A DNA stretch of 64,000 bases. Source: an uncultured Bacteroidia bacterium. Its GTDB lineage: Bacteria > Bacteroidota > Bacteroidia > Bacteroidales > F082. The DNA lies in contig CADCJI010000003.1 in the NCBI GenBank assembly GCA_902801625.1, positions 100,747 through 164,746 of the forward strand, in the 5' to 3' direction. This document shows, in pieces, positions 3,677 to 29,231 of this stretch. The position numbers and the translations under genes are program-made. The notes under the pieces are model-generated. The model was not told the origin of the DNA, searched no databases, and saw only the letters and a list, made by a program, of their open reading frames with translations. How positions within the stretch are numbered: position 1 is the stretch's first letter; each line of letters begins with the position of its first letter.

Positions 3677-4804
3677 TTAAAACCCATACCCCACTCCAAC
3701 TTTCCCCTCCACGGTCTGGAAATTGGTGGTCACGGCCTCCAACGAAAGCACGAAACTGCCCAAATGCGCCTGCACTCCAGCCGACACATCCACACCTTGG
3801 AAACTGTATCCTTTTATCTTGTACCATTGCTGTTCCTTGTCTTGCCAGCAGAGGTTGTGTGCTCCATAGCCTACACCTACACGCACATAGAGCGGTTCAA
3901 CCACCCACATCATCCCGCCGACGATGACGGAAAAGCGGTCGGTGGCCCTCGTGCCATTGTACATGGGCAGATGTCCATCCTCAAGGAACCCTTGAGCATC
4001 CACTTGCGAGAGGTTGCTCATGCCCGTGAAGCTGCCGTTGGTCATGGCCGAGACGAACCAGCCGTATCGCTTCACCATTCCCACACTGAAGCCCATCGAA
4101 AACGGGGCGTAGGAACCATTAAGGGTGATGAAGGTTTCCCAGCGATTGGTCTTCTTGTTTACCAATGGAATTGTTTTCAGGCTCACCCTAACGACGACAG
4201 CAGTATCTTCCACGCTCACTTCCCCTTTTGCACTCTCATAGTTCGGAGCCTGCACCAGATAGGTATACGTTCCTTCCTTGACGCGCTTTCGAGCCGTTCC
4301 GTCCCAAGTGACCGGCCAAATCTCACCGTCCACCTCAAGCATGGCGTTGGTGGGCGTGATATGGAAGGTAAGGTATTGTTGCGCCACCTCTTCGTTATCA
4401 TTCGTCGTCCCTTGCAGGACAATCCGATAGGTGAACAGCGACTCCACCTTGTGCAGGTATTGTGTCAGATGCAGGTCCCACGGCCCCAACTTCTCATGCT
4501 TGATTTTCAAGGTCTTGATGCCTGGCGAGACCCAAACCCAGATTTCGCCTTCATTCAAAGTGTGTGCCACCACGAATGAATTCCAATCGCATTCGAAGTG
4601 GAAGCCTTCGCGCAGTTCGGGTGCAATGTTTTGTGTGACGATGCGGAACACCGCACACTGTCGTCCCCTCTCATCCTGTTTGATGTAGTCGCGAGCCGTC
4701 ATATCAAAAGGCAAAGGCTCAACACTGATAACCTTATAGTCTTGGGCTTTCAGGGATAGAAACGAAATGATGAAAGCCAATAAAAGTAAAATCCTTATCC
4801 TCAT
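3677..4804 (-). CDS. PEGA-domain protein with predicted outer-membrane barrel end
   Basis: This 375-residue protein starts with a signal peptide (MRIRILLLLAF.., cleavage probably after LKA at residue 20). Residues 21-145 are a conserved region containing IKQDERGRQCAVFRI, shared with the protein at 27314-29167. A single PEGA-like segment lies at about 150-205. Residues 215-375 are rich in alternating aromatic and small residues and end in VGVGYGF, a terminal Phe typical of outer-membrane beta barrels. It lacks most of the PEGA repeats of the 617-residue paralogue, so it is a short form of the same architecture. A good Bacteroides promoter precedes it, and the InlB-repeat gene follows on the same strand. 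The role is unknown; a cell-wall-binding or surface-anchoring barrel is an inference. Confidence 0.8.
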   Translation of the reverse strand: MRIRILLLLAFIISFLSLKAQDYKVISVEPLPFDMTARDYIKQDERGRQCAVFRIVTQNIAPELREGFHFECDWNSFVVAHTLNEGEIWVWVSPGIKTLKIKHEKLGPWDLHLTQYLHKVESLFTYRIVLQGTTNDNEEVAQQYLTFHITPTNAMLEVDGEIWPVTWDGTARKRVKEGTYTYLVQAPNYESAKGEVSVEDTAVVVRVSLKTIPLVNKKTNRWETFITLNGSYAPFSMGFSVGMVKRYGWFVSAMTNGSFTGMSNLSQVDAQGFLEDGHLPMYNGTRATDRFSVIVGGMMWVVEPLYVRVGVGYGAHNLCWQDKEQQWYKIKGYSFQGVDVSAGVQAHLGSFVLSLEAVTTNFQTVEGKVGVGYGF

Positions 4805-4828: not shown

Positions 4829-4869
4829 CAAATTTACAAATAGAGGTGGTATTGTCAAAAATTTAGTCT
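4829..4869 (-). promoter_or_regulatory. Bacteroides-type promoter with AGACTAA motif
   Basis: On the minus strand, TTTG (4859-4856) and TAAATTTG (4836-4829) are 19 nt apart, which fits the Bacteroides -33/-7 consensus. AGACTAA lies just upstream (4869-4863). Nearly the same block stands in front of 6830 and 29167. Confidence 0.75.
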
Positions 4870-6830: not shown

Positions 6831-6863
6831 ATACTGCAAATTAGTCATAATACCAACATTACC

Positions 6864-6934
6864 CTCAATAGAATTTTACACTATTGAGCGTGCAAATTTA
6901 CAAAATAGAGATGGCATAGACAAAAAATTAGTCT
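6864..6934 (-). promoter_or_regulatory. Promoter, AGACTAA motif and leader hairpin of the 642-residue protein gene
   Basis: On the minus strand AGACTAA (6934-6928), TTTG (6924-6921) and TAAATTTG (6900-6893; 20-nt spacer) form a promoter. Transcription would start near 6887. The first transcribed bases can form a perfect 8-bp stem, CTCAATAG/CTATTGAG (6888-6864), with a 9-nt loop. Confidence 0.7.
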
Positions 6935-7295: not shown

Positions 7296-7931
7296 TTAGT
7301 CGCCTAAAATCTTATCAAGTTCCTTGGCAAGGTCATTGGCTTCTTTTTCAAGTTCACCTCTCATGGCTTCCTTAGCTGCCCTCATGGCCAACGCCTGACT
7401 GTAATAGGCAATGACACGCACTTCGACATTGCCATTGGGAAGGTCGCGATACACCTTCACGGGCACAATCACCTGCCCTAACCTCTGGGCTACAAGGTTT
7501 TTACCAGCGCCCACACTTGTGGCCAACGAAGTGGCATCGTCCTTTGAGATTTCCCTGTTGGCTAATTTGTTGTCAATGATTTGGATGACACGGGTTTCCA
7601 TCTTACCAGCCAAATTCAGCTTTGCCAAATTCTCAGCCTGGAACAAGGCTGCGTCATAGATTTGACCCGGGGTCATTGCCTCACCTTGAATGAATTTGTC
7701 ATAGCCATAGTCGTCCTTCTGCATCTGCATCTTATACGACTCTATTAATTGCATCTCAATTGTCGGGTTGCCTGGAGCTGCTTTCCAGCCCTCTTTTTTC
7801 AGTACCTTAGCTTCTTTTTTGGCATTCTTTTCGATGGTTTTCATCTCCTTTTTGCTCAGTTGTGCGTAAGAAGTGGGCATTGCAACAGCCATGGCGACCA
7901 CGAGCATCAAAAACATACCTAGTTTTTTCAT
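7296..7931 (-). CDS. Exported helical protein, LPP20-like
   Basis: The 211-residue product starts with a signal peptide (MKKLGMFLMLVVAMAVAMPT, cleaved near YAQ). A lysine-rich amphipathic helix (residues 25-50) is followed by a region with AENLAKLNLAGKMETRV and a strand VIVPVKVYR; the end is again helical (EKEANDLAKELDKIL). This helix-strand pattern is like the N-terminal part of the long paralogues on either side, so I infer membership in the same envelope family. It probably formed an operon with the truncated gene 11 nt downstream. A GGACTAAT motif lies about 85 nt upstream of the start. No known catalytic residues are seen. Confidence 0.7.
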   Translation of the reverse strand: MKKLGMFLMLVVAMAVAMPTSYAQLSKKEMKTIEKNAKKEAKVLKKEGWKAAPGNPTIEMQLIESYKMQMQKDDYGYDKFIQGEAMTPGQIYDAALFQAENLAKLNLAGKMETRVIQIIDNKLANREISKDDATSLATSVGAGKNLVAQRLGQVIVPVKVYRDLPNGNVEVRVIAYYSQALAMRAAKEAMRGELEKEANDLAKELDKILGD

Positions 7932-8414
7932 TTTGTTTTCCTTTCTTTAGTTTTGTTGTTGATTTATTGATTTGTTTATTTGATTTGCCTAATAGAGTTT
8001 TCAACTAACAAAGATTAGTCCAATTTTTTGAAATATTTTTCTGATTTATATAATTTATTGGCTATCAATTTGTTATTATTAGTGTATGAACCATCTCCCA
8101 TTCCTTATTTTTCAAAGGCATGAATGCTAATAAGATATTTTCTAGCATAGCCACGACGTTTTATGGCGCAAATGTAGTAAAATTTTTAGAATGGACGGAA
8201 TAAACCTTCATTTTCTCGAAAAAGGCATTCTCTAGTCATACCATTTCTTCGCTGATGCCATACTCTTGCCATACTCAAGCATACTCTTTCAGTATGCAAA
8301 CAGTATAGGTAGAGCGAGAGAAGAAGCTTCAAAATCCCTTGTTACACTCGTACTAGCAGATTGTCAATCAATCCATCCAAACAGAGAGATCAAAGCAACA
8401 CAATTACTAACTCA
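7932..8414. other. AT-rich intergenic region without a gene
   Basis: It contains the GGACTAAT motif on the minus strand (8021-8014), a weak hairpin (ATGCTA/TAGCAT, 8124-8148) and three CATACTC units (8259-8286). I see no ORF with coding character and no clear -7 box. Confidence 0.6.
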
Positions 8415-10220
8415 TCAAAAGTCACCCAATCCATACAATCCGAAATCAGGGTCGCGGTCGGGCTGCCAGGTGCGCACCTTGATGATGGGGTTTTCGGGGT
8501 CATTCAAGTCGACACAGAGGAAGAGATAGCCCGTGTCGCCATAGTTGGTGGAATAATAGTCCTGCTTGATCTGGATGCCGTACACCTCGCCGTAATCACC
8601 ACCTGCCTTCACAACATCGTTATTGGCAAAGCGGATGTTGATGAACTCGTTGCTAGCAAAGGTTCGTCTCAAATGGTTGATGTAGGTATTCTTATCGTAG
8701 CGATTGTATTTGATAATTGGGTTGTCCAGATAACGGGTGCGTTCCTCTTGGTTCTTATAGTCAGTGCGTTTCACCACGGTACCGGTGATAATCAGTGCAT
8801 TGTCATCGAAGATGCTCTCAATATAGTCGAGGCGCTTCAAGGCAAAGGCGGTCTTGTAGTTTTCGAGGAACTGGGTGAGTACCATGCGGGCATTTTCGCT
8901 GTAGTCGGTGCGTTTCAGGATGTCGGCCACGGCCTCCTCGCCCAAACCAAAGGCCACACAGTTGATTTTGTTCTCTGCATTAAACGTAAAGCACACACTC
9001 TCAACGAACTTACGCGTGTTGTTCTTGAAACTGAAACTCATTGGAATGCTGCGACAGATGGTTTCGTCACCCTTACGGATATAGGTCAGTTGAGGCTCTT
9101 CGAGGATGCGGGCATTGCCATAGTTCAACAGCTTATGGAACATTTCCTTGCCTTCAGGTGTAAAATACTGTTCCACAGACTTATAATTTTTAGCTTTTAC
9201 GGCTTCCAAGACCTTTCCCATAATGTCTTCCATGGAAGTGGTCTCCTCCTTGGAAACAACAGAAAGCGGCATGACGGTCTCAGTCTCTTTTGCCGTCAAT
9301 GCAGCAAGAGCCACTGGCTGCATCTCAGCTATGGTTTGGTTATCGCCACCCACATTAATATAGGCATTGCGGAAGTTGCGGCCTTTCATCACCTCTACCA
9401 CTGCTGCAATCTCCTTGTCAATCTGTGCCTCTCCGAGGTACTCGTATTCGCATTTGATTTTCAGGTTGTCGGTGGACACGCCGGGTTGCATCTCCATGGA
9501 GCCTAGGCCATCAGTGGCACTATAGATGTTGGTATAGCCGCGTCCGTCGTAATAGGTGTAGTCGAGGCTCGCCACAGGCTTGTCTTTATAAGTGACATAC
9601 AGGGTGACAAACTCATCTTCTACCTTATATTTCCGGACTTTCACCCCTTTGAAGACCTCATTGATCCTATCGGGAATCCAGGTCCTAAGCAAAGCATGGT
9701 CGGGTGTTTGGGGCTGCATGGTGTCAGGCAGGCTGGTCACGAGGCAGTAGCTCCAATAGTAATAGCGCAACACGTCGTCTATTTTCAGTCGCTCTTCGGC
9801 TTTTTGGGCAAGGTTGATGAAGTCCTCCGCCTTTTGTTTTCTGGCCTCAAAGATTTTGGCCACATCCTCCACCGCCACGTAACGGAGCACATGGGCATCG
9901 GGTTCCTGTGAGATGGTGATGACTTTGGTATTTGTCAAGGTGGCCTGCGAATAGGTCTTCATCACCGCCTGCATGGCCATTTTAGAGTCCGTTTTACCTT
10001 CGGAATTGACATTGCCAATCACATTGGTGAACGAGCTTTCCACGTTGACGGAGATATTCTCCACCAAATGCCGCAAGGCCTGCCGGTCGGCATCCTGATA
10101 ACTCTCGGCCATGCCTTCTCCCCAAAGGTATTTTCCGCTGTTTTTGATTTCGGTCACACTTTGGGCTGTCATGAGGACAGGCATCAAAGCCATACAAAAC
10201 AAAAGTACATATTTTCTCAT
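8415..10220 (-). CDS. Exported LPP20-like protein, long paralogue 2
   Basis: The ATG at 10218-10220 gives 601 residues and a signal peptide (MRKYVLLFCMALMPVLMTAQ); the frame is open further upstream, but that part lies across the promoter. Residues 25-170 hold the LPP20-like part (LWGEGMAESYQDADRQALRHL, then a beta strand ending VEDVAKIFEARKQKAED). The C-terminal part (YGEVYGIQIKQDYYSTNYGD, FLCVDL) matches the paralogue at 4902-6830. Both have a conserved middle segment that begins after a Ser/Glu-rich linker. The function is unknown; both are probably secreted to the periplasm or the outer surface. Confidence 0.75.
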   Translation of the reverse strand: MRKYVLLFCMALMPVLMTAQSVTEIKNSGKYLWGEGMAESYQDADRQALRHLVENISVNVESSFTNVIGNVNSEGKTDSKMAMQAVMKTYSQATLTNTKVITISQEPDAHVLRYVAVEDVAKIFEARKQKAEDFINLAQKAEERLKIDDVLRYYYWSYCLVTSLPDTMQPQTPDHALLRTWIPDRINEVFKGVKVRKYKVEDEFVTLYVTYKDKPVASLDYTYYDGRGYTNIYSATDGLGSMEMQPGVSTDNLKIKCEYEYLGEAQIDKEIAAVVEVMKGRNFRNAYINVGGDNQTIAEMQPVALAALTAKETETVMPLSVVSKEETTSMEDIMGKVLEAVKAKNYKSVEQYFTPEGKEMFHKLLNYGNARILEEPQLTYIRKGDETICRSIPMSFSFKNNTRKFVESVCFTFNAENKINCVAFGLGEEAVADILKRTDYSENARMVLTQFLENYKTAFALKRLDYIESIFDDNALIITGTVVKRTDYKNQEERTRYLDNPIIKYNRYDKNTYINHLRRTFASNEFINIRFANNDVVKAGGDYGEVYGIQIKQDYYSTNYGDTGYLFLCVDLNDPENPIIKVRTWQPDRDPDFGLYGLGDF

Positions 10221-10318
10221 ATCGTTTGGTTTTTCTTCATTATTGTTGCGTCCAACAAGTAGCGACTGCACCACGAAGTCGATGCAAAGCTTGCATGGGC
10301 TATCGTGTTTTACGGCGA

Positions 10319-10360
10319 CAAATTTACGCAAAAATTCGCTTAACTTGCAAACGGACTAAT
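10319..10360 (-). promoter_or_regulatory. Promoter of the 601-residue protein gene
   Basis: On the minus strand TTTG (10351-10348) and TAAATTTG (10326-10319) are 21 nt apart. The GGACTAAT motif is at 10353-10360 but in the opposite orientation to the other cluster promoters. The leader would be about 90 nt. Confidence 0.7.
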
Positions 10361-10767: not shown

Positions 10768-11088
10768 TTATTCAGATGACTTCTTTAACAGGTTTATCAG
10801 ATTCTTGACATCTCGTCGGTTTTGCCAAATCGTGACAATTGTAACTACGTCACCATCAATATAATAAACGATTTGATTTAATTTGGAAGGCAACGTACGG
10901 TAGACGACGCCTTCCTCTTCATCTTCCACAAAGCGTTTGCCAAGCATTGGAAAGTTCTCCAGCATTTCAGCAGTACGACGTATCTCGGCCAGAACTTCGG
11001 AGGCCTTTCGACCGCCAAACGAACTCCCGACATAATTCAAGATGTCGCGTAAGTCGTCACGCGATTGCTCGCTCCAATTAATCTTCAT
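10768..11088 (-). CDS. ParE/RelE-family toxin
   Basis: This 106-residue protein has the family layout: an N-terminal strand and helix (INWSEQSRDDLRDILNYV), two helices with FPMLGKRF, then the C-terminal strands YRTLPSKLNQIVYYIDGDVVTIVTIWQNRRD. The pattern of a central Arg followed by a Tyr-rich strand and a terminal W.NRRD matches ParE-type toxins, which usually act on gyrase; RelE-type members cleave mRNA. The sequence alone does not settle which. It overlaps the antitoxin gene by 11 nt, as expected for a translationally coupled module. Confidence 0.85.
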   Translation of the reverse strand: MKINWSEQSRDDLRDILNYVGSSFGGRKASEVLAEIRRTAEMLENFPMLGKRFVEDEEEGVVYRTLPSKLNQIVYYIDGDVVTIVTIWQNRRDVKNLINLLKKSSE

Positions 11089-11350
11089 AGGTGGAAATCA
11101 ATTGGTCCATCTCTTTCATCACCTCATCGTGGGAAATGAGCTTTACGCGCCCAGCCCTGATGTCGCGGCCTCGTTGCAATGTCAGCGTCTTGGCCTCTTC
11201 GAGTGAATAGGTGCAAGGAATCTGTGGCTCGGGCTCTTGATTATCCTTTTCAATCAAAGCCATAGCGATTCGGGTCAAAATCCGGGTAAGCTCGGCAGCA
11301 TCATATTGGCCATAATTTGGCAAATTAACTTGTATGCTAACACCATCCAT
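11078..11350 (-). CDS. Antitoxin partner of the ParE-type toxin
   Basis: The ATG at 11348-11350 gives 90 residues; the frame extends further only with a TTG that lies inside the -7 box (TATTTTTG, 11388-11381), so the downstream ATG is the start. AAGGA lies 10-14 nt before it. The protein has an N-terminal strand region (VSIQVNLPNYGQ), a proline-rich linker and a C-terminal helix (ISHDEVMKEMDQLISTYED) that would wrap the toxin. No recognisable DNA-binding fold is evident. Position directly upstream of and overlapping the toxin supports the assignment more than the sequence does. Confidence 0.7.
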   Translation of the reverse strand: MDGVSIQVNLPNYGQYDAAELTRILTRIAMALIEKDNQEPEPQIPCTYSLEEAKTLTLQRGRDIRAGRVKLISHDEVMKEMDQLISTYED

Positions 11351-11472
11351 GACATTGTTTCCTTTTGTTCTCGCTTGCAAAAATACACATTTTCCCTAAA
11401 AACGGCCCATTCTTTGCGATTATTTCTTTGTGTCTTTCGGTTTTCTTATATCAAATGCGGATGAACGGAAAA

Positions 11473-11688: not shown

Positions 11689-13839
11689 CTATTCAGAAAG
11701 ACATAATCGAAACCCGTTAAAATAACTATTTTCGCTAGATTCTCCAACGTAGCTACTCCTATCAAGAGATACTCTGTCGGAATCGTCATTCCAGCAACCG
11801 CCACGCAATTGACGATACGATTTGAACTTATCCTGTATCCATTCATTTACATTGCCATTCATATCGTATAATCCTAACTCATTGGGCAATTTTGTTCCTA
11901 CAGGATGTGTTTGACCATCACTATTCCCTGCATACCAAGCGACATCGTCTATATAATTGCCACCAGAGTATTTATTACCATTATAACCATTGCTTTTGTG
12001 GCCACCAAGAGCTGCATACTTCCACTCCTTTTCGGTGGGAAGACGGAATTCTCTTCCAGTCAGATGTTTCAGCCTTTTGATAAATTTCTGACAATCATTC
12101 CAACTCACTCTATAGGCAGGATAATCGTCTCCTTTTCCATAACCATCTTCCCATCCGCCATTATAGGTAGGCTCAGAACCCATCACTGCCTTCCACAAGG
12201 CTTGTGTCACTTCCGTTTCACCAATGTAATAACTGCTCAAAGTCACGCTGTGGACAGGTTTCTCATCATCATCGGCATCGCTGTCACTGCTGCCCATCTG
12301 GAAAGTGCCGCCCTCAACAAGTTTCATGGTAAAGCTCACACCGTTCACAGTAAAAAACTCCTCATCTTTCATTATGCTCTGCAACGTTATGCTGTGGCTG
12401 CGGCTGCCGCTTTCGCTTACATTTAAGGTATAAGTGTAATCTTGGTAATCTGTAGCCGTGGCTTTCAGGCTGTGGCTGCCATAGGTGAGTTGGTAGGTGC
12501 CCGTGGCAGAGCCTACCCTTTGCCCGTCAATCTCCAATTGGGCATCGGGCACGTTGCAAGTGAACTGTATCTCCTGGCCATTGCTCAACGTAGCTTTCAC
12601 CTGTTTGCGTTCTCCTTTCGTTATGGTAACGGTTTCCGTATAGTCGGCATAGCCGTCTTTGGTGAACTTTATCTCGTGTTGGCCAATGAGGATTTCAGCA
12701 ATGGACTTGGGGGTGGTTCCCATGTCCTTGCCGTCGATATAAAGCTTGCAGAAATTCGGCGTGCTCTCCACGTTCAGTGCGCCGTAAATAGGGCGCGGCG
12801 CTGGCAGGGTAATGGTTTGTCCCTCCATGGCGGCGGCAATCTCCTTGGTTGTCGTGCTGGTTTCATGGTTGGCCTGCTTGCACTCTATCTTGTAGGTGCC
12901 GCTGCCCAAGGGGCCTGTCCACGAGCGAGTGCCTTTGCGTTCGTCATTCACGAAAATCTCGGCATCGGCATCCACCGTGAGGGTCACTTCGGCGAAGTCG
13001 GCGGTCAACGAGGGGGCAAGGCGGGTTGTCTCGCTGTCGGCAACCGTCACCGACTCTGTGTAGGTGGCGTACATCTTCTTGGTGATGCGCACGGTGTGTT
13101 TTCCGCTCTTCAGGGCTTCGCTTTTGCATGGAGCGTGGCCTATCAAGGCATTGTCGACATACACGCTGGCATCTTTCAAATTGCCCGTTCCAGCCACCTC
13201 AATCCAACCGAAGTTAGGTTGCAGCGTGACGGTAACGATTTTGGGGTTGTTAGGGTCATCGACGGTCACTCTACCGGCATCCGAATGATAATTTGGTGCC
13301 TCGACGCGCCAAGAGTAAGTGCCGAAATTGACATAATCCTGGGCGCTGCCGTCGGGTTCCACGTCCCAGTATTTTTCGTCCACCACAAGTGTGGCATTCG
13401 GAGGCAAGATTTGGAAGGCGAGATATTGCATCCGCACCTCTTCCTTCACAATGGTTTCAATCTTCGCCGTAGTCAGCACCATCTCGTAGGTACGCTCGGC
13501 TTCTATCTCCACGGGATAGTAATAATCCCTCAGCACACCAAGTTTCGGGTGCTTGATGGTGATTTTTCGTGCCGCCCGTGGCACCCATACCCACACCTCT
13601 CCAGGGGTTTGCTTCGTGTCGACGATGCCCAAGGTGCCGCCTTCAAAGACAAAGCCCGTCTCGGTGGTCACCACTTTAATCAATGCCGCCACATCCCCGT
13701 TCTGGTCAACGCGCTTCCCTTCGAGGCTCGAAGCCGTCAAGTCCATCGGCAGGGCCTTGAAGGACTTCACTGAAATGTTTTGGGCGAATGCACCACAAAT
13801 GCTAAAGATAAAGAATATAAGCAGAGTAAATCTTTTCAT
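11689..13839 (-). CDS. Exported PEGA-repeat protein with SUMF1 (FGE-like) C-terminal domain
   Basis: The 716-residue product has a signal peptide (MKRFTLLIFFIFSICGAFAQ). Residues 21-150 resemble the N-terminal domain of the two PEGA-barrel proteins (LPMDLTAS, GEVWVWVPRA). Five or so PEGA-like units follow (about 150-460; for example STPNFCKLYIDGKDMGTTP). A SUMF1 domain occupies about 490-716 (FQMGSSDSDAD, ETEVTQALW, FRLPTEKEWKYAA, LGLYDMNGNVNEW, LRGGCW, GFRLCLSE). SUMF1 folds include formylglycine-generating enzymes but most bacterial extracellular versions are binding modules; here the role is likely surface binding. The -7 box TATCTTTG lies at 13865-13858. Confidence 0.85.
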   Translation of the reverse strand: MKRFTLLIFFIFSICGAFAQNISVKSFKALPMDLTASSLEGKRVDQNGDVAALIKVVTTETGFVFEGGTLGIVDTKQTPGEVWVWVPRAARKITIKHPKLGVLRDYYYPVEIEAERTYEMVLTTAKIETIVKEEVRMQYLAFQILPPNATLVVDEKYWDVEPDGSAQDYVNFGTYSWRVEAPNYHSDAGRVTVDDPNNPKIVTVTLQPNFGWIEVAGTGNLKDASVYVDNALIGHAPCKSEALKSGKHTVRITKKMYATYTESVTVADSETTRLAPSLTADFAEVTLTVDADAEIFVNDERKGTRSWTGPLGSGTYKIECKQANHETSTTTKEIAAAMEGQTITLPAPRPIYGALNVESTPNFCKLYIDGKDMGTTPKSIAEILIGQHEIKFTKDGYADYTETVTITKGERKQVKATLSNGQEIQFTCNVPDAQLEIDGQRVGSATGTYQLTYGSHSLKATATDYQDYTYTLNVSESGSRSHSITLQSIMKDEEFFTVNGVSFTMKLVEGGTFQMGSSDSDADDDEKPVHSVTLSSYYIGETEVTQALWKAVMGSEPTYNGGWEDGYGKGDDYPAYRVSWNDCQKFIKRLKHLTGREFRLPTEKEWKYAALGGHKSNGYNGNKYSGGNYIDDVAWYAGNSDGQTHPVGTKLPNELGLYDMNGNVNEWIQDKFKSYRQLRGGCWNDDSDRVSLDRSSYVGESSENSYFNGFRLCLSE

Positions 13840-14060: not shown

Positions 14061-15530
14061 TCATTTCCTTGACAATACCACATACCACGGGTCGGTGGCC
14101 GAAGGCCGGTACATGCCCTCCCACACTTGATAGCCCTCCTTCGTAACCCTCACCCGCTGGGTCTTGTCCTGCTTGGCAAAAGGAATCTCTATCTTGAACT
14201 GCCCGAAGGCATCGGTCTGCACGGTCATGTCCTGTAGCGAAATCGTGGCACCTTCAATGGGTTGCTCGGTCTCAAAGTCAACGACACGGCCAAACACCAC
14301 ACCTAAGTCATTGTTGCGCTTCAAACTCAGGCTCAACGACTTCTGCACCTTTACTACAGTATCGATAGTTTGGTAGCCATCGGCCTCAAAAACGACATGC
14401 ACATCTGAGTTCCTATATTTGTAAGGTATCTCGTTCAGGAACACTGTAGAGTTTTCGGGGCCCACCTTGAGTGTTTGCACCGCATTGTCGGCATACTCGC
14501 ATTGCAACGTGCCTTCTGTGAAAGGCAGCGAAGGGATGCTGTAGTCCTTGTCTTCGGTGACGTTGATTTTCATCTGCAACGGTGTCGAAACACGCCATAC
14601 GTAATATCCAATTCCTCCTAACAAAAGCAACGCCACAATACCAAGGATATAAAACCTAACCTTCTTTGCAGTCTCCGGTCCCTGAGCCTGTGGCCCCTGA
14701 GGTCCCTTGAAGGGTCGAAGGGCCGGATCTCCGATATACCCATCCTCAGCCAGTCGCTTGATGATTTCCTCGTAGGCCACATCGGCAAACTTGCGTACAT
14801 AGCCCAGCTGGTAGTCGAAGTTCTGCATCTCGGGATTGGCCGACAAAGGAGCGGCCTGTTTGGTCGAAACCATGAAGCATCCCGTGTGCTTCCAGCGTTC
14901 CATGAACTCGTTGGCCGAATAGGTATTGTCTTGCTCAGGGTGTGATGGGTCATGCACCACCACTTTCAAATTGTTGGGGTCGGTGGTATCGATGCCGGCC
15001 ACAAGCATCACGTGCTGGGCTTCCGCTGTTTCTGCCGCATCGGCATCAACGCCTACGATGATCTTATGGCCTTGGCTCAGTTCATGCATGATGTGATAGA
15101 CACCCGCATTGCGCATCTGCACGGATTCCACACCATAGTGATTGAGCAGCTCACCCACGAAGTCGAAAGCACTGCCCTTCCCTTCCTCAAACCAGCCTTG
15201 CTTCTTGGCCAAGGCAGTCAGTTCCTCCGTGCTCACTTCAATACCGTAGTTGCGAAGCACCATTTGTTGCGCCTTGATGGCACAGTCCATCTTTTCCGAC
15301 GCTGCCGCTAGCGCATATTCGTCATACTCGATCATGGAACGGGCAAACACCGACTGATGGGCGATGTCGTCCTGATAGGCCATCTCGGCGCGGGCAGCGA
15401 AAAGGATGTCCATCTCCTCCTCGTTTTCCGACAGGCAAGCTTCTACTGCCTTCCTTTCCTCGTCAGTCGCTTTGCCTTCGAGATAACGGGCAATCAGTTC
15501 ATCGGTGATTTGCATGGGTTCGTTTTTCAT
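14061..15530 (-). CDS. Membrane-anchored anti-sigma-like protein with C39/papain-like domain
   Basis: This 489-residue protein begins one base after the stop of the ECF sigma gene. Residues 8-50 (DELIARYLEGKATDEERKAV) resemble the N-terminal segment of FecR-type and other anti-sigma factors. Residues 82-222 look like a C39 or papain-like fold: Cys83 in MDCAIKAQQM, His173 in AQHVMLVAGID and Asp194 in VHDPSHPE are in the order and context of a Cys-His-Asp triad, with GKGSAFDFVGEL between. A transmembrane helix follows (about 292-313, YILGIVALLLLGGIGYYVW). The C-terminal part is predicted periplasmic and ends in a carboxypeptidase-regulatory-like domain (about 408-489, VVFGRVVDFETEQPIEGATI). I infer that it senses or transmits envelope signals to the sigma factor. 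Whether the protease-like domain cleaves anything is unknown. Confidence 0.75.
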   Translation of the reverse strand: MKNEPMQITDELIARYLEGKATDEERKAVEACLSENEEEMDILFAARAEMAYQDDIAHQSVFARSMIEYDEYALAAASEKMDCAIKAQQMVLRNYGIEVSTEELTALAKKQGWFEEGKGSAFDFVGELLNHYGVESVQMRNAGVYHIMHELSQGHKIIVGVDADAAETAEAQHVMLVAGIDTTDPNNLKVVVHDPSHPEQDNTYSANEFMERWKHTGCFMVSTKQAAPLSANPEMQNFDYQLGYVRKFADVAYEEIIKRLAEDGYIGDPALRPFKGPQGPQAQGPETAKKVRFYILGIVALLLLGGIGYYVWRVSTPLQMKINVTEDKDYSIPSLPFTEGTLQCEYADNAVQTLKVGPENSTVFLNEIPYKYRNSDVHVVFEADGYQTIDTVVKVQKSLSLSLKRNNDLGVVFGRVVDFETEQPIEGATISLQDMTVQTDAFGQFKIEIPFAKQDKTQRVRVTKEGYQVWEGMYRPSATDPWYVVLSRK

Positions 15531-15531
15531 G

Positions 15532-16119
15532 TTACGCTTCCTTCCTTTCTTGCATTATTGTCTTCAATTCCAATCTGGCTTTTTTTGTCAGGTTGTACAC
15601 TGCCGCTACCGTGCATCCCATCTCGGCGGCGATGTCTTCGGCACGTTTGCCCGTCAGGTCGGCCAGTAAGGCGTAACGTTCGCGAGGTTTCGACAGCCTG
15701 TTGATGGCTTGGTAAAGTTCGAGGCGGCTCATCTCATTGATGATGTCGTAATCGTCCGCCTCGTTCTTTTGGGTTTCGACAATCAATTGAGGGTCTATCA
15801 CGACTAATTTAGTCTGAGAAATGCGTATTTTTTTGAAAAATCTTACCGCAATCACCGTCAGCCATGTGTTCAGGCCTGCCTTGAACTCAAACTGACGCAA
15901 CCTACTCCAGTCGTTTTCGCTGAGAAACAAATAGAAATCGGTAATTAATTCCTCCTTGATGGTCTGCGATTGGAAAATGCTGCATGCGATGTGGGCAAAC
16001 ATCCCGTTGCAGCGAATAAAGAACAAATACTCTATTGCCTCTTCATCATTGGCAAGGAGCAAGTCGACCAGTTCCTTGTCGCTCAAACTGTCGAAATAGG
16101 CTTTGTTCCTCTCTCGCAT
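15532..16119 (-). CDS. ECF-type RNA polymerase sigma factor
   Basis: This 195-residue protein has the two ECF domains. Region 2 lies at about 30-100 (EEAIEYLFFIR, ELITDFYLFLSEND, FKAGLNTWLTVIAVRFFKK) and region 4 at about 130-188 (RLSKPRERYALLADLTGKRAEDIAAEMGCT followed by VAAVYNLTKKARLEL). Length and layout fit an ECF sigma factor that directs RNA polymerase to a small regulon. The gene starts 2 nt after the stop of the exported protein gene and ends 1 nt before the anti-sigma-like gene, so the three are surely co-transcribed. It is the natural candidate regulator for the exported paralogue genes around it, which is an inference from context only. Confidence 0.85.
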   Translation of the reverse strand: MRERNKAYFDSLSDKELVDLLLANDEEAIEYLFFIRCNGMFAHIACSIFQSQTIKEELITDFYLFLSENDWSRLRQFEFKAGLNTWLTVIAVRFFKKIRISQTKLVVIDPQLIVETQKNEADDYDIINEMSRLELYQAINRLSKPRERYALLADLTGKRAEDIAAEMGCTVAAVYNLTKKARLELKTIMQERKEA

Positions 16120-16121
16120 GA

Positions 16122-17144
16122 CTATTCGAGGCTTTTGATTAGGCGTTGCAACTCTTCGACCTGCTCTTGGTAATAGCCGTCATTCATTTCGTTCAGCAGC
16201 TCATACATTTTCAACGCCTTTCGGAAACAATCGGCTGCCAAAACAGTGTCATTCAGACTCAAGAAAATGATGCCGAGATGACGGCAGCTTTGGGCATAAT
16301 GCAGTCCGTTGGCCATGAAACCAGTCTCATACCTGTCGTTGTATCCAGCGAAAGCGACCACATCTGCATAAAGCGAATCGGGGATGTTGAGCAAATCGAA
16401 ATTGCTAGCGGCGACATGCACTTCAGGGTTCGTCATGGGATAAGTACCCGTGAAAACAAGATAATCGTCCATCACGTTGCTCTCCGGCAGGTCGCCGATG
16501 AGTGCCAAGCCCGACTCAGCATCACCTGATATTAGTCTGTCGTAAAATGGTAGAGAATTCTCATCCAAGTCGTCGGCATTGATGCGTGCCATGCGGTCGG
16601 CATACTCATCCAAGTTTTGATAGGCGACTTTCAGTTCGGCTTCGGCCAGCGACTGCCAATAGTCCAGTTCTGGCTTAGTGATGACTTGCTGGGCATATTG
16701 GCCATTCAGGTAGGCCACGGTAGAGTCATAGCGTTGGATGCTGGCGGTTTCAAGCAGGGCGTAATACTGTTCACGCGCTTCTTTTAGCTTTTCGACAGGC
16801 GCCATGACGATGCGAAGCGAGTCGCGGTCGGTCAAGGTATAGCCTTCAATAATGTGCTTGTTGACTAGCTCATAACCGTATTTGCGTGCGCTGAGTCCCA
16901 TGACCACATCACCCACCTTATGCTCGCCGAAACTGAGACGGAACAATCCGAAAGCATCACTTGCCGTGGGCTGACAGTCGTGCGCCATGGGAATGGAAAC
17001 GGCCACATTGGGGAGCGATCGCCCGCCCGAATTCATTTCAACCACATATCCATATTGCACCATCTGTGCCGATAGCATGCCACCGTAAACAACAAGGCAT
17101 GCCATGACAATCCATCTCATTTTTCCGACAAGTAAAGTTTTCAT
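16122..17144 (-). CDS. Exported protein with carboxypeptidase-regulatory-like domain and helical C-terminus
   Basis: The ATG at 17142-17144 has a good ribosome binding site (AGAAGGA, 3 nt before it); the frame extends upstream only to a TTG. The 340-residue product has a signal peptide (MKTLLVGKMRWIVMACLV.., cleaved near LSAQ). Residues 30-115 form a small beta domain of the carboxypeptidase-regulatory type (YGYVVEMNSGGRSLPNVAV, DAFGLFRLSFGEHKVGDVV). The rest is helical with TPR-like spacing (ALLETASIQRYDSTVAYLNGQYA; CFRKALKMYELLNEM). It is the first gene of the sigma operon and begins 51 nt after a transglutaminase-like gene. A role as the periplasmic partner of the anti-sigma-like protein is possible, since both carry the same type of beta domain. 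Confidence 0.7.
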   Translation of the reverse strand: MKTLLVGKMRWIVMACLVVYGGMLSAQMVQYGYVVEMNSGGRSLPNVAVSIPMAHDCQPTASDAFGLFRLSFGEHKVGDVVMGLSARKYGYELVNKHIIEGYTLTDRDSLRIVMAPVEKLKEAREQYYALLETASIQRYDSTVAYLNGQYAQQVITKPELDYWQSLAEAELKVAYQNLDEYADRMARINADDLDENSLPFYDRLISGDAESGLALIGDLPESNVMDDYLVFTGTYPMTNPEVHVAASNFDLLNIPDSLYADVVAFAGYNDRYETGFMANGLHYAQSCRHLGIIFLSLNDTVLAADCFRKALKMYELLNEMNDGYYQEQVEELQRLIKSLE

Positions 17145-17195: not shown

Positions 17196-18719
17196 TTACA
17201 TAGGCATGACAATGGGCTTCTTTTCCTTGAATTTGTCGGCACATAAGCCTACTGATGCCCCAGGCCACGTTGGTTCACAGATCACATATTTCTCGTCCCT
17301 AACCAGTAGGTAATCACCTTTCACAGGCTCATTGAAATGCACTGCCGTCGTCACATGACCAGGATAGCTCAACAGCACCACATCGAGACCTACCAACTCG
17401 CGCACCAAGCAGGAGAACAGGATGGAACGGTCCTCGCAGTCGCAATAAGGATAGTAGAAAGTCTCATCAGGGTAAAGGGGACGCTCGTAGCCAAACTGAT
17501 CTTGGTCGGAAGAATAGCCGAATCCCGTTTGGACAAAGTTCAGCAACATGTTGACTGCCTCCACTTCCTTCTTTCCCTCAATCGCCTTTTGCAACACCGG
17601 ATACAGGTCACGCTTCACGCATTCGCTCAATGAGGCATGTGAATAGTAATTCCATTGGCCGGAAACTGGATAGTCGTTATAGAAATCCAAGAGGTTCTTA
17701 TTCGTTTCAACTGTAACCGTAATCTCTGGATAGTCTTGGGCAGAAAAGGTCTGTTTTTCAGTTCTTTCAAGGCTAAACTTAGGCTGCACCAAAGCTAATG
17801 AAAGCGACTTCTCTTGTGGAAATGCCCTGTCAAATATCAGCATCGACTTGTCTTCAAGCGACCTGTCGATGATATAGTATTGTATCCCTTCCATCTCACA
17901 ATACTTGTATCCATAGATTTTCTCATTCGAGCCCATCAACAAGGTCAAGCGGTTTTCGGCCATGGCAATACGCATCTGATAGCCCGACTGAACCAAGATG
18001 TACATTTGCAGCACTATCGACTCGTTGGTGCCTTCACCAAAATACTTGTTGGCCATCTTTTCCGTCAGCTTCACATAGGCCCAGTCGCACAGGTTGCAGG
18101 CTTTCCTTTGCCTCAAGCATTCTGCGGCAATATTGTCATAATAGGGACATGACAGCTTCTTCCACATTCTAGCTATGCTCTTTTCCGTGAGATTCTTAAG
18201 CTTGATGGGCTTCTTGGGTTCCGGCTCAACGCGCACCTTGATTGAGGAGCCATAAAGCGATAGCGACTGCATGGTTGCGCTGGCATCAAAGGTAGCCATG
18301 ATGGGTTCCAACGGCTCAGGCTGGCCAACCAAAACAAGGTCTTCATTGGAAATCGAGGCCAAAGGCAACCGTTGGCTGGGCAGACGATCCGTAGGAACAT
18401 CCTCGATGACATCATACTCAATCATATCATTGGTCACACGCGCTTCATGCTCATAGGTGATGACCGGCTTAGGCTCCATCGGAATCTCTTCTGCATCCTT
18501 GACAGCGTAAGAGGTCCAAGCTTCTTCCATGAAATGGGCATACTCATCATTGGCCTTTTTACGGAAATCCTCAAATTCCTTGTTGGCCTGCTGCTTGAAT
18601 TGCTCAAACATATCTTGAGATTCCTTTTTCATTTTCTCAAAGTCACCCTCTTTTTCCACTTGGGCTTTCAAAGGGAACAACACGAGCAAGGTCAAGCCTA
18701 ATAATAAATATCTTCTCAT
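17196..18719 (-). CDS. Exported transglutaminase-like protein, paralogue 1
   Basis: Starting at the ATG at 18717-18719 gives 507 residues and a signal peptide (MRRYLLLGLTLLVLFPLKAQ); the earlier in-frame start is a TTG. Residues 25-70 are an amphipathic coiled coil (FEDFRKKANDEYAHFMEEAW). The C-terminal 100 residues contain the transglutaminase-type set Cys428 (CDCEDRS), His455 (YPGHVTTAV) and Glu482 (VICEPTW). In the two paralogues the last residue is Asp, so the triad is altered here and activity may be lost or changed. The family may cross-link or cleave peptides outside the cytoplasm. The gene lies 51 nt upstream of the sigma operon. A -7 box TATTTTTG lies about 30 nt before the start. 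Confidence 0.75.
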   Translation of the reverse strand: MRRYLLLGLTLLVLFPLKAQVEKEGDFEKMKKESQDMFEQFKQQANKEFEDFRKKANDEYAHFMEEAWTSYAVKDAEEIPMEPKPVITYEHEARVTNDMIEYDVIEDVPTDRLPSQRLPLASISNEDLVLVGQPEPLEPIMATFDASATMQSLSLYGSSIKVRVEPEPKKPIKLKNLTEKSIARMWKKLSCPYYDNIAAECLRQRKACNLCDWAYVKLTEKMANKYFGEGTNESIVLQMYILVQSGYQMRIAMAENRLTLLMGSNEKIYGYKYCEMEGIQYYIIDRSLEDKSMLIFDRAFPQEKSLSLALVQPKFSLERTEKQTFSAQDYPEITVTVETNKNLLDFYNDYPVSGQWNYYSHASLSECVKRDLYPVLQKAIEGKKEVEAVNMLLNFVQTGFGYSSDQDQFGYERPLYPDETFYYPYCDCEDRSILFSCLVRELVGLDVVLLSYPGHVTTAVHFNEPVKGDYLLVRDEKYVICEPTWPGASVGLCADKFKEKKPIVMPM

Positions 18720-18820
18720 AGCTAAAGTGTTATTATCGTTTTTCAATTTGCAAAAATACGTTTTCTTTTGACAGAGCAGGCAACATTGCAGCTTTTTCAG
18801 ATTTTTTCTTCTAAAGAATA

Positions 18821-20353
18821 TTAAAACTTTATCACTTTGGGACTAACTGTCTTGTATTTTGGAGCACATTGTCCCACCACGGCACCAATATAGGTCGGGT
18901 CGCTGATGATATAGTTCTTGCCGTCCACGACCAGATAGTCACCCTCCACAGGCTCATTGAAACAGACGGCCGTGGCGATATGAATGGGATAGTCAAGCAA
19001 CACCACATCAAGACCCAACAACTCACGCACCAAGCAGGAGAACAGAATGGATCGGTCCTCGCAGTCGCAATAAGGATAGAAGAAGGTCTCGTCGGGATAA
19101 AGCGGACGCTCGTAGCCAAACTGCTCCTGGTCGGTCTGATACTGGAAGCCCGTCTGCACAAAATTCAGCAGGATATTCGCGGCCTCCAGGTCAGTCTTTC
19201 CCTCAATGGCCTTGCGCAAGGCTGGATAGAGCGAATCTTTGATTGCCGGACTTAGCGAGGCCAAGGAATAATAGTGCCAATTGAAATTGATGGGATAATC
19301 GTTATAGAAGTCGATCAGATTGCGGTTGGTTTGCACCTTTACCGACAAGCTAGGATAGCGCTTCGATTTGATGGTTCTCTCTTCCGTCTTCTCCACTTGC
19401 AAATTGGGTTGGGTCACGGCAAGCGAAAGCGACTTTTCCCCAGGGAAGGCATGGTCAAAAACGTGCAGGCTCTTGCTGTTGTACTTTCTGTCGAGGATAT
19501 AAAACTTAATACCGCCATTCTGGAAATACTGATAACGGAAAATCTTTTCCTTCGAACCCATCAGCAGCATCAGGTGATTGGCATTATCGCGGCCAATGCG
19601 CATCTTGTATCCCGACTGCGTGAGCAGATACATCTGCATTACGATGGCCTCGTTGGTGTCCTTGCCAAACTGTTTCTCGGCCACCTGCTGTGTGAGCTTG
19701 ACGTAAGCCCAGTCGCACAGGTTGCGGCTCTCGCGCTGTTGCAGGCATTCGGCAATGAGGTAGTCATAGCTTGGATCCGACAACTGTTTCCACATCTTGG
19801 CCACACTCTTTTCCGAGGCATCCTTCAACGTCGGCATTTCATAGTTATCCAGATGGAAAGAGAAGGACGAACCATACAGGTACACGTTTTGTGCCGCCGT
19901 CATGGGAACTGCACTCGGAACAATAGGTTCCACAGGCTTGGGGCGCTCCACTTGACTCAATTCAGGTCTAGGAATCTCCGTTAGCACCAATGGATCAGGC
20001 ACCCTGACAGTCTCCCTGGCAGGTCGGGTATTAGGTTTGGAATCAAGGGTCGGCGCAGGCTTCGGATCTATGTTGTCAACCAACGGAACGGGTGGCTTGG
20101 GTTTCGCCGGCGGTTCCTCGGCAGGCTGGATATCAAAGATTTTCCAGGATTCTTCCATAAATCGGGCATACTCTTCATTAGCTTGCTTACGGAAATTCTC
20201 ATACTCCTGATAAGCCTGTTGTTTGAATTCCTCAAACTCCTTGAGAGCGTCTTTCTGCTCTTCTTTCATTTTTTTCAGCCAGTCGTCTTCGACTTGGGCG
20301 TTTAGGGTGGCCACCATGAAAAGTGCCAACCCTGTCAATGTCAATCGTTTCAT
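18821..20353 (-). CDS. Exported transglutaminase-like protein, paralogue 2
   Basis: The 510-residue product starts with MKRLTLTGLALFMVATLNAQ, a signal peptide. A coiled coil (about 25-70, EEFKQQAYQEYENFRKQA) and a proline-rich linker (about 80-150, AEEPPAKPKPPVPLVD) lead to the body. Cys431 (CDCEDRS), His458 (YPIHIATAV) and Asp485 (IISDPTY) form a complete transglutaminase-like triad. The protein is collinear with paralogue 1 (about half identical by eye in the C-terminal half). It is divergently transcribed from paralogue 3, with paired GGACTAAT motifs between them. Confidence 0.75.
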   Translation of the reverse strand: MKRLTLTGLALFMVATLNAQVEDDWLKKMKEEQKDALKEFEEFKQQAYQEYENFRKQANEEYARFMEESWKIFDIQPAEEPPAKPKPPVPLVDNIDPKPAPTLDSKPNTRPARETVRVPDPLVLTEIPRPELSQVERPKPVEPIVPSAVPMTAAQNVYLYGSSFSFHLDNYEMPTLKDASEKSVAKMWKQLSDPSYDYLIAECLQQRESRNLCDWAYVKLTQQVAEKQFGKDTNEAIVMQMYLLTQSGYKMRIGRDNANHLMLLMGSKEKIFRYQYFQNGGIKFYILDRKYNSKSLHVFDHAFPGEKSLSLAVTQPNLQVEKTEERTIKSKRYPSLSVKVQTNRNLIDFYNDYPINFNWHYYSLASLSPAIKDSLYPALRKAIEGKTDLEAANILLNFVQTGFQYQTDQEQFGYERPLYPDETFFYPYCDCEDRSILFSCLVRELLGLDVVLLDYPIHIATAVCFNEPVEGDYLVVDGKNYIISDPTYIGAVVGQCAPKYKTVSPKVIKF

Positions 20354-20397
20354 ACAGTTCGATTTTAGAATACGAAAACATAGAGACTATCAGAGCG

Positions 20398-20516
20398 CAA
20401 AATTAGTCCATTTTTCCGACAAAAAAAATATTCAGGCAAATCATTTGATTTTGGGAGGGTATATTAATAGACAAAGGTGTACTTTTTATTATTTTTGCAC
20501 AAATTTTCGGACTAAT
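20398..20516. promoter_or_regulatory. Divergent regulatory region with outward GGACTAAT motifs
   Basis: GGACTAAT points left at 20409-20402 and right at 20509-20516, each about 50 nt before the start codon of its gene. -7-like boxes are TAATTTTG (20405-20398, overlapping the left motif) and TATTTTTG (20490-20497). A matching -33 box at normal spacing is not clear on either side. Confidence 0.5.
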
Positions 20517-20568
20517 ATTTCCGCATGGCATCCTCTAATGGGGAGAACAAAACAAAGAACACGTCATC

Positions 20569-22044
20569 ATGAGAGCAAGAACACTCCTTATCATATTCAT
20601 CGGTTTGGCAATGATACCTTTAGGATTGAGTGCCCAAAACGACAGTTCCTCTTTCCAAAGCAACTATGATAAATTCAAGGAACAGGCGCAAAAAGAATAC
20701 GACGACTTCGTAGCACAAGCACAAAGTGAATTCGAAGCCTTTCTGGCCCAGGCTTGGAGCGAATACCAGAGCTTTACCGGACAGTCTGGGGCTTATTCGA
20801 AGCAAAAGCCCGAAGTCGTGCCTTCCGTAGCGGTTCAATCGGGCATCATCGACGTGGAGGCTCCTTCGATGGACAGTGAAAGCCCTATCTTTGAGAATGA
20901 ACCCGAAAACAAAAACTCGGTCTTCGATTATGACACAAGCCCTTCAAGTACAATCAAAATCAACTTCTACGGTCGCGACATGGTGTTTAATGTCCCAAAA
21001 GCACTTAGGGTCTCGTCAGAGGGCGTCAGGGAAAGACAGGTCTCAAAATTCTATGCCACCCTGCATCAAAACGATGCCGACCACATCCTGCAACGGCAGT
21101 TGGATGAAGCCGTCGGCCAGATGGGATTGAACGAATGGGGCTATTTCGTCTTGCTTCGTGCCATCACTGAAAAAATCTATGCCAAAGTGAACGACCGCGT
21201 ACTGTTCGCCTTCTATATGCTGCACAGCCACGGCTTCAAGGCCAGAGTAGGACGAGGCTCAAAAAGCGACCAGCTCCTGCTCCTGCTTGCCTTGGACAAC
21301 AGCAAAGAAGTGTACTCAGAAACCTTCTTCCGCATCAACGGCACCAAATACTATGCCTTGTATGGCAACGGGCAGAAAGGCGAAAGCGTTTATTCGTATG
21401 ATGAAAAAGCCGACCAAAGCGGCTTGAAGGAAATCGGGCTCGATTTCAAGAAGTCGCTCAACATAGCCGCTTGCGACAAGTCGCGCAAACTGCACCTCAA
21501 CAAGGTGAACATGGACATCACACTGCCCTACTCCACCTCTCATCTACGCTATTACGACGAAATCCCCACCACGGTGTTTCCCATCTATTTCAACACCCCC
21601 GTCTCGAAAGAGACTGAGGCAGTGCTGGCTGAAACCATTGGCACGTTGAGCAAACAATACAATAAGGTGCAACTGGTGGATATCATCCTCAACTTCGTGC
21701 AGACCGCTTTTGTCTACAAAATCGACGAGCAATACCATGGACGCGAGAAATACTATTTCCCTGAAGAGACCATCGGCCTGCCTTTCAGTGACTGTGAAGA
21801 CCGTTCCGCCCTCTTTGCCTGGCTGGTGAAAAGATTTGTGGGCTACGATGTCATTGGCGTGCTTTATGACGACCATTTGGCCACTGCGGTTTGCTTTGGC
21901 GACGATGCGCAACTGACCGGCAGAAGCGTCACTCACAAGGGCAAACGCTATATGGTTTGTGACCCGACCTACCAGAACGCTGCCATCGGCACCGTCATGC
22001 CGAAATATGCTAACGTCAACCACGAAATCGTTAAAATCGACTGA
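20569..22044 (+). CDS. Exported transglutaminase-like protein, paralogue 3
   Basis: The 491-residue product has a signal peptide (MRARTLLIIFIGLAMIPLGLS, cleaved near AQN) and an N-terminal coiled coil with repeating EFEAF and EYQSF units (about 25-75). The C-terminal domain contains Cys409 (SDCEDRS), His436 (YDDHLATAV) and Asp465 (VCDPTY), a complete transglutaminase-like triad. It is more diverged than the other two but keeps the whole layout. It is the first gene of a two-gene unit with a membrane protein 5 nt downstream. Confidence 0.75.
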   Translation: MRARTLLIIFIGLAMIPLGLSAQNDSSSFQSNYDKFKEQAQKEYDDFVAQAQSEFEAFLAQAWSEYQSFTGQSGAYSKQKPEVVPSVAVQSGIIDVEAPSMDSESPIFENEPENKNSVFDYDTSPSSTIKINFYGRDMVFNVPKALRVSSEGVRERQVSKFYATLHQNDADHILQRQLDEAVGQMGLNEWGYFVLLRAITEKIYAKVNDRVLFAFYMLHSHGFKARVGRGSKSDQLLLLLALDNSKEVYSETFFRINGTKYYALYGNGQKGESVYSYDEKADQSGLKEIGLDFKKSLNIAACDKSRKLHLNKVNMDITLPYSTSHLRYYDEIPTTVFPIYFNTPVSKETEAVLAETIGTLSKQYNKVQLVDIILNFVQTAFVYKIDEQYHGREKYYFPEETIGLPFSDCEDRSALFAWLVKRFVGYDVIGVLYDDHLATAVCFGDDAQLTGRSVTHKGKRYMVCDPTYQNAAIGTVMPKYANVNHEIVKID

Positions 22045-29167: not shown

Positions 29168-29190
29168 CAATGAATCTCTATTTCAGGCTG

Positions 29191-29231
29191 CAAATTTACG
29201 AATAGAGGAAACACCATCAAAATTTTAGTCT
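29191..29231 (-). promoter_or_regulatory. Promoter with AGACTAA motif of the second PEGA-barrel gene
   Basis: AGACTAA (29231-29225), TTTG (29221-29218) and TAAATTTG (29198-29191), with a 19-nt spacer, repeat the layout in front of 4804. CCTCTATT in the spacer is also shared with that promoter. Confidence 0.75.

Follow-up and report, generated by a model that had tools for sequence, protein, structure and literature searches.

Proteases commonly free sigma factors by cutting the anti-sigma factors that hold them, as in the cases of RseA and RsiW. In class I anti-sigma domains, helices 1–3 form a bundle that is followed by a flexible linker and then by helix 4, in which most of the predicted sigma contacts reside; according to the accessible text of the same study, only 6% of the Bacteroidetes extracytoplasmic function (ECF) sigma factors are associated with such a domain (PMC7406223), which leaves the control of the remaining ones open. 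The ECF control modes covered in the accessible part of a review include no protease built into the anti-sigma factor (PMC8999054), and a precedent for a cysteine protease that cleaves an anti-sigma-type inhibitor is described, in the portion available, for Csx29/Csx30/CASP-sigma (PMC10028731). Here, we describe a locus in a 64,000-nt stretch of DNA from an uncultured Bacteroidia bacterium (contig CADCJI010000003.1, positions 100,747–164,746, forward strand; the whole stretch is hereafter called the window), in which the gene for an ECF sigma factor is directly followed by that for a 489-aa anti-sigma-like membrane protein with an embedded papain-like domain of the C39 type. This arrangement is real, recurrent and well conserved and is a new form of the sigma/anti-sigma switch; no account of an anti-sigma factor with a C39/papain domain was found among the literature matches listed (titles and abstracts, open-licence PMC). 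What is new is the apparent insertion point of the domain, its recurrence together with the linkage to sigma genes, the bipartite promoter and the character of the domain as an add-on. We propose that the locus encodes an autoregulated, envelope-sensing switch in which the papain-like domain would release the sigma factor by self-cutting, a reading to which we assign a probability of about 0.4.

The minus strand of the window carries three tandem open reading frames (ORFs), 17144–16122, 16119–15532 and 15530–14061, with intergenic gaps of 2 and 1 nt, as described in the initial annotation of this DNA. The three-gene unit was nevertheless drawn too small: the operon appears to begin two genes further upstream, at 20353 (TG1), with a promoter motif at 20380–20408. 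The genes are listed below; exported, signal-peptide and membrane assignments were made by eye here and throughout.

18821..20353, minus strand: TG1, the first gene of the operon, exported, with a weak transglutaminase-like match (Transglut_core, E 0.03, under the cut-off)
17196..18746, minus strand: TG2, an exported operon protein resembling TG1
16122..17144, minus strand: exported CarboxypepD-like/TPR-like protein, 340 aa from the ATG (signal-peptide-like start; Pfam, homologue L055)
15532..16119, minus strand: divergent ECF sigma factor, 195 aa (Pfam, NCBI sigma70-ECF model)
14061..15530, minus strand: anti-sigma-like protein, 489 aa, with the embedded C39/papain-like domain (ORF list, Pfam)

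The 195-aa protein is indeed an ECF sigma factor, as annotated, and we regard it as a divergent one because its region 4 passes the Pfam gathering threshold (Sigma70_r4_2, 29.2 vs 25.7 bits) but the NCBI sigma70-ECF model, which covers residues 36–187 at 35.4 bits, falls short of its cut-off of 42.9; region 2 has no Pfam match in this protein. The 340-aa protein has the exported-type start ascribed to it, but its presumed carboxypeptidase-regulatory-like domain lacks a Pfam match of its own: Pfam yields a sub-threshold TPR alone, and a weak CarboxypepD-like match (E 0.0064) comes from the homologue L055. No further protease was recognised by Pfam among the operon proteins. The only PADLOC match for the sigma factor is weak (mad1, E 0.0061), with none for the 489-aa or the 340-aa protein.

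The 489-aa protein consists of the following parts:

15360..15509, minus strand: anti-sigma-like helices 1–3, residues 8–57, without zinc ligands (weak zf-HC2 match; helices 10–17, 23–34 and 37–58 in a low-confidence model)
14853..15335, minus strand: C39/papain-like domain, residues 66–226 (Pfam above cut-off; AlphaFold2 (AF2) domain model; fold matches)
14733..14834, minus strand: conserved tail and proposed anti-sigma helix 4, residues 233–266 (conservation; match to the class C helix)
14595..14663, minus strand: transmembrane (TM) helix, residues 290–312 (sequence, Lys-Lys on the N side; helix 288–314 in the low-confidence model)
14064..14594, minus strand: periplasmic beta region, CarboxypepD_reg at residues 412–470 (Pfam; common to TIR–TM proteins)

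The TM helix and the periplasmic beta domain that had been annotated are both found, the latter with CarboxypepD_reg at 34.2 against a gathering threshold of 32.3. With no N-terminal signal and two lysines before the TM helix, read by eye, the C39 domain should face the cytoplasm. The full-length AF2 model was too poor for use (predicted local distance difference test, pLDDT, 50.8; 7 sequences). The poorly conserved linker at residues 259–293 (window 14652–14756) has many short matches elsewhere in the genus, several of them with stop codons, and resembles a dispersed repeat that has become part of the coding sequence.

The predicted fold of the insert is papain/C39-like, as the initial annotation had supposed. 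Two Pfam families match the 489-aa protein above their thresholds, Peptidase_C39_2 (PF13529; 31.0 vs 24) and Peptidase_C39 (PF03412; 25.0 vs 22). A Foldseek search with an AF2 model of the domain alone (pLDDT 71, pTM 0.65, 7 sequences) retrieved the C39-like peptidase 3erv at E 6.6e-4 and also matched staphopain, and structural re-alignment of this model gave Z scores of 12.7 with HlyB, 12.1 with staphopain, 12.0 with PCAT1 and 11.6 with ComA. A sequence search of the PDB with an 18-member family profile found 3erv (E 8.1e-6); the main piece of that alignment includes the His and Asp columns, and the Cys falls in another piece that has no significance alone (i-Evalue 43). The putative catalytic residues stand exactly at the positions claimed for them:

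15282..15284, minus strand: Cys83 codon (Cys in 34/34 rows)
15012..15014, minus strand: His173 codon (His in 34/34)
14949..14951, minus strand: Asp194 codon (Asp in 27, Asn in 6 and Phe in 1 of 34)

These counts refer to an alignment of the window protein with the 33 strong C39 matches in the retrieved loci; further regional matches (e.g., in G060 and G114) lie outside it, and three weak generic C39 matches (L124, L127 and L128) were excluded from the 33. Cys and His are invariant across the 34 rows, in which the identity to the window protein falls to 21–26% (RyR class), and the third residue is Asp or Asn in 33.

Where the domain was inserted can be judged by comparison with class C short forms, in which the helix-3 region continues directly into a helix, FSEMAYDIVVRRLVMDGII, that is similar to FADVAYEEIIKRLAEDGYI, located after the C39 domain in the window protein. 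A profile of helix 4 (the FADVAYEEIIKRLAEDGYI region) placed five class C proteins at the top of 575 ORFs, with the match in the correct place, and therefore the papain-like domain most likely separates anti-sigma helix 3 from helix 4, at a place normally taken by a flexible linker. The mean pairwise identity is 0.86 for the C39 domain and highest, 0.95, for residues 227–266, compared with 0.71–0.79 for the anti-sigma, periplasmic and CPD parts. The ratio of nonsynonymous to synonymous substitution rates (dN/dS) between the window and L094 is 0.029 for C39 and 0.022 for helix 4, against 0.082 for the anti-sigma and 0.087 for the periplasmic part; in the comparison with L097, the values are 0.114 for C39, 0.027 for helix 4 and 0.252 for the periplasmic part, and in that with L095, the C39 value is not computable, the synonymous sites being saturated. 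Both C39 and helix 4 are under purifying selection.

The association with sigma factors extends across the family. A sigma gene lies directly upstream, on the same strand, in 29 of the 33 strong C39 matches (30/34 with the window), and in 22 of these 29 the two genes overlap as called. The exceptions are L062, where the contig edge intervenes and the upstream ORF is anti-sigma-like by eye alone (profile E 2.5), one of two copies in L071, L119, with the sigma gene three genes upstream, and L126; the three weak generic matches also have no sigma neighbour. Of the 29 neighbours detected, 19 are outside the 28 sigma proteins from which the sigma profile was built, four of these 19 (L069, L071, L072 and L073) reaching only E 4.9e-6 to 6e-4. 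At the family level, 57 of the 173 searched genomes match, and 7, the own genome included, have the full C39 form. Strong C39 matches (E < 1e-30) were found in 12/393 genomes of the order sample besides the own one, in 11 further families, and in 2/395 genomes of the phylum sample, again besides the own one, both from another class; a pattern scan of named genomes with a seven-row alignment gave six records, all uncultured Bacteroidales metagenome-assembled genomes, and three scans of viral contigs gave no relatives. The arrangement, then, recurs in Bacteroidales and in another class, which the initial annotation had left to be searched for.

Several classes can be told apart. The class with C39 plus a TM helix includes the window protein, L036–L041 and, from two other families and with the same insert position, L114 and L117; a short class without C39 has 18 members in the sigma tree; a soluble class carries a RyR domain after C39 (e.g., L067–L073); and a further class has dynamin-like or Hsp70-like neighbours (L063, L064, L066 and L113). 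Among the soluble forms, L069:6366–7436 (in the own genome), L067, L068, L070, L072 and L073 combine an anti-sigma-like N-terminus, a C39-like domain and RyR, some with a zinc ribbon, and follow an ECF or longer sigma-like gene (RyR and zinc ribbon were assigned by Pfam in the own-genome copy and L067, the other soluble forms by BLAST). Elsewhere, L065:4254–5390 and L074:5228–6358 encode a TIR domain, a TM helix and a periplasmic domain of the window-protein type, next to exported TPR proteins (L065 by Pfam, L074 by eye); such TIR–TM proteins are the outside module of the window protein with a putative TIR output.

The operon is preceded by a bipartite motif, the core of which recurs nearby:

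20380..20408, minus strand: proposed operon promoter, GACTAATTTTG-N14-CTAT (upstream of TG1 in 9/9 sigma-clade members)
4840..4868, minus strand: core motif before the exported gene 3677–4804 (no Pfam family above cut-off; motif scan, Pfam)
6905..6933, minus strand: core motif before the exported gene 4902–6848 (LPP20 match under cut-off; motif scan, Pfam)
7992..8020, minus strand: core motif before the exported gene 7296–7931 (no Pfam family above cut-off; motif scan, Pfam)
29202..29230, minus strand: core motif before the exported PEGA-domain gene 27314–29170 (motif scan, Pfam)
20510..20538, plus strand: weaker divergent copy (CTCTAA) before TG3, 20569–22044 (motif scan)

The sigma clade meant here (support 95/89) unites seven C39–TM forms of the genus with the short forms L044 and L051. 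Before TG1, the full motif is exact in seven of its nine members and has one mismatch in L038 and L051, in surrounding DNA that has mostly diverged. The exact motif is found once in the 3.58-Mb own genome; a search of 99 genomes of the genus yields 12 copies, spread over 10 of them, with the reversed control present in 2/99. These 10 are the nine sigma-clade genomes and G118, and in G057 and G050 an exact copy stands at another gene. In G118, the locus L154 keeps TG1 with the motif before it, as well as TG3 and a small exported-protein gene, with no sigma or anti-sigma gene in the 14 kb examined. At a tolerance of two mismatches, the motif loses its specificity in the own genome (12 matches vs 8 for the reversed control). 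The core GACTAA-N17-CTCTAT has six exact matches genome-wide, five of which fall inside the window, at distances of 26–60 nt from the called start codons of the exported-looking genes that follow; the reversed core has 2 genome-wide, and no match occurs in twenty first-order randomisations of the window. The genes 8415–10331 and 11689–13839 have no such motif upstream in the window scan. In sister genomes, other genes for exported proteins are also preceded by the motif, among them genes with FGE-sulfatase domains in L041. This co-occurrence suggests that the motif is recognised by the sigma factor of the operon. A GACTAA-N17 motif ending in CTAT also precedes a small helix-turn-helix-like gene in four regions, L042:1282–1310, L043:9480–9508, L045:9650–9678 and L048:1493–1521, which are short-form operons of the caspase type, and a promoter of this kind may also serve the paralogous sigma factors. 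At 10768–11380 of the window lie two small overlapping genes, the first with a ParE toxin match (38.8 vs 23 bits) and the second, without a Pfam family, a presumed antitoxin by position.

In the switch that we propose, the 489-aa protein would keep the ECF sigma factor bound to the cytoplasmic face of the membrane by means of helices 1–3 and helix 4, which flank the papain-like domain, and the periplasmic domain would sense the state of the envelope, probably through the exported CarboxypepD/TPR partner. Upon a signal, the papain-like domain would free the sigma factor, most likely via a cut in its own helix 3–helix 4 region, in cis or between copies, that would separate the clamp halves on either side. 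The freed sigma factor would then transcribe the operon that encodes it, together with four or more neighbouring exported-protein genes, from the GACTAA-N17-CTCTAT promoters. The anti-sigma identity of the 489-aa protein is likely: of the 48 homologous N-termini, 30 have a weak zf-HC2 match (at E up to 1, the lowest being 0.0012), with the next family matching 5, and two homologues, L123 and L125, have an HxxxCxxC zinc motif at the equivalent position. That the papain-like domain opens the clamp by cutting is a step to which we grant somewhat less than even odds.

Several observations weigh against this reading. The oxyanion residue of C39 peptidases, a Gln at the sixth position before the Cys, is present in 9/34 rows, mainly in the dynamin/Hsp70-linked class, and its replacement by Ala in the window subfamily (window and L036–L041) is the main fact against plain proteolysis. 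Because this Gln is absent, we do not file the 489-aa protein as a proven C39 peptidase; catalysis by the domain is unproven and the peptidase role putative. No cleavage site is recognisable in the 489-aa protein, and the helix 4 profile matches the class C proteins over a short stretch at E-values of 0.15–0.17. The N-terminus of the window protein itself (a 75-aa piece) matches zf-HC2 below the threshold (E 0.0097; 16.4 vs 22.2 bits), which is weaker than the annotation had stated. A profile of the zinc-less N-termini does not significantly match the zinc-motif homologues (L123, E 0.048; L125, unreported), and the best decoy in that comparison, at E 0.0079, is itself a sigma ORF. Finally, L044 and L051 keep the operon and the promoter without C39, and a sigma/anti-sigma pair without C39 is found in 16 other short relatives. 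None of the three outcomes that would have refuted the initial annotation was obtained: the predicted fold is papain/C39-like, Cys and His are kept throughout, and the weak matches of the homologues favour an anti-sigma-like N-terminus. The supposed release of the sigma factor by proteolysis is held back by the missing oxyanion Gln and the two sigma-clade relatives that lack the domain.

The sigma/anti-sigma pair can exist without the C39 domain, which, given that L044 and L051 retain operon and promoter in its absence, we consider an add-on; repeated loss is the simplest reading, and independent gains are also possible. A second operon in the own genome pairs a sigma gene with that for a 258-aa protein, in which the same N-terminus, TM helix and periplasmic domain are present and C39 is absent. 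After this C39-less paralogous pair stands a CarboxypepD-like/caspase (C14) gene (L054:5081–6322), the product of which is probably located outside the cytoplasm, given its signal-peptide-like start. A swap between caspase and C39, with either C39 in the anti-sigma protein or a caspase in the partner, was considered and rejected: the short operons L044, L050, L051 and L052 have neither in these two genes, and L038, L040 and L052 carry a separate caspase-like ORF further downstream.

Alternatively, the domain could be a non-cutting peptide or ligand sensor in the cytoplasm, the occupancy of which would part the clamp halves, so that the sigma factor is freed by conformation or by the ordinary proteases of regulated intramembrane proteolysis. 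The missing oxyanion Gln, as noted, counts against plain proteolysis, but pure binding domains often lose the catalytic Cys and His, whereas all 34 rows here retain both the nucleophilic Cys and the His, down to 21–26% identity. We consider such a sensor a serious contender, if somewhat less probable than cutting.

A smaller chance is left to an active protease that the anti-sigma part would only place and control and that acts on another substrate, for example the sigma factor or an incoming protein of foreign or exported origin. In its favour, C39 is encoded as an ORF without an anti-sigma-like part in L062, L119 and L126, and sister operons have the sigma/anti-sigma pair without C39. Moreover, C39-bearing anti-sigma-like genes in L063, L064, L066 and L113 are followed by genes for dynamin-like GTPases and/or Hsp70-like proteins (Pfam assigns dynamin in L063 and L064 and HSP70 in L113; L066 was judged by eye); one dynamin-like protein of L063 matches the PADLOC LeoA/LeoBC defence models. 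The adjoining sigma gene in the window and 29/33 relatives, with four exceptions, counts against this reading.

It is improbable that the protein is an ordinary membrane anti-sigma factor with site-1/site-2 release, in which the papain-like insert is a decoration without a signalling role. The absence of C39 from 18 of the 27 membrane relatives in the sigma tree, together with the intact operon and promoter of L044 and L051, would fit a decoration, but conservation is higher in the insert than in either the anti-sigma or the periplasmic part, and the insert occupies the same position in two other families (L114 and L117). Least credible of all is an N-terminus that is not anti-sigma, in a membrane receptor merely sharing the operon with a sigma gene: the sub-threshold zf-HC2 match in the window and the joining of the same TM–periplasmic module to a TIR domain elsewhere would allow it, but a sigma gene is adjacent in 30/34 rows, including those from another class, and the HxxxCxxC zinc motif stands at the same place in L123 and L125.

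Extended to the whole family, the self-cutting reading would describe a widespread group of anti-sigma factors with a papain-type protease inside the sigma clamp that replaces the site-1/site-2/Clp chain, the soluble RyR-bearing and dynamin-linked versions being the same switch acting on cytoplasmic signals; we advance this extension tentatively, as a more doubtful proposition than the switch itself. Self-cleavage, if true, would be a new way of releasing a sigma factor. This divergent anti-sigma-like family with a built-in papain-like domain, with strong matches from 12 families of the order (counting the own one), may account in part for the control of those Bacteroidetes ECF sigma factors that have no class I domain, and GACTAA-N17-CTCTAT supplies a ready reporter along with defined candidate target genes.

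How does this locus compare with the systems already described? It resembles the class I anti-sigma factors (ASDI; RseA, RsiW, RskA, ChrR) in that the gene directly follows the ECF sigma gene, with a 1-nt gap, in the combination of a predicted helix 1–3 region and a proposed helix 4 with one TM helix and a periplasmic domain, and in a promoter consistent with autoregulation. Unlike these factors, the window protein has a papain-like domain filling the helix 3–helix 4 linker and no zinc motif, and the operon encodes no other protease by Pfam. With the C39 domains of the PCAT/ComA exporters and 3erv, it shares the fold and the order and positions of Cys, His and Asp; it differs in the lack of an ABC transporter, of a recognised double-glycine substrate and of the oxyanion Gln. 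The C39-like domain of HlyB has lost the catalytic Cys, whereas Cys and His are invariant in the window family. The EACC/caspase/ECF-sigma/TPR neighbourhoods show a similar mix of ECF sigma factors, TPR and caspases, and the own paralogous operon also has a caspase gene; however, the accessible part of that study describes no papain-like anti-sigma fusion (PMC8195603). Craspase (Csx29/Csx30/CASP-sigma), as presented in the accessible part of its description, likewise brings together a cysteine protease and a sigma-factor inhibitor in one system (PMC10028731), but its protease is a separate, caspase-type enzyme that is activated by RNA and acts in trans, whereas the window locus has a papain-type domain within the membrane-bound inhibitor itself.

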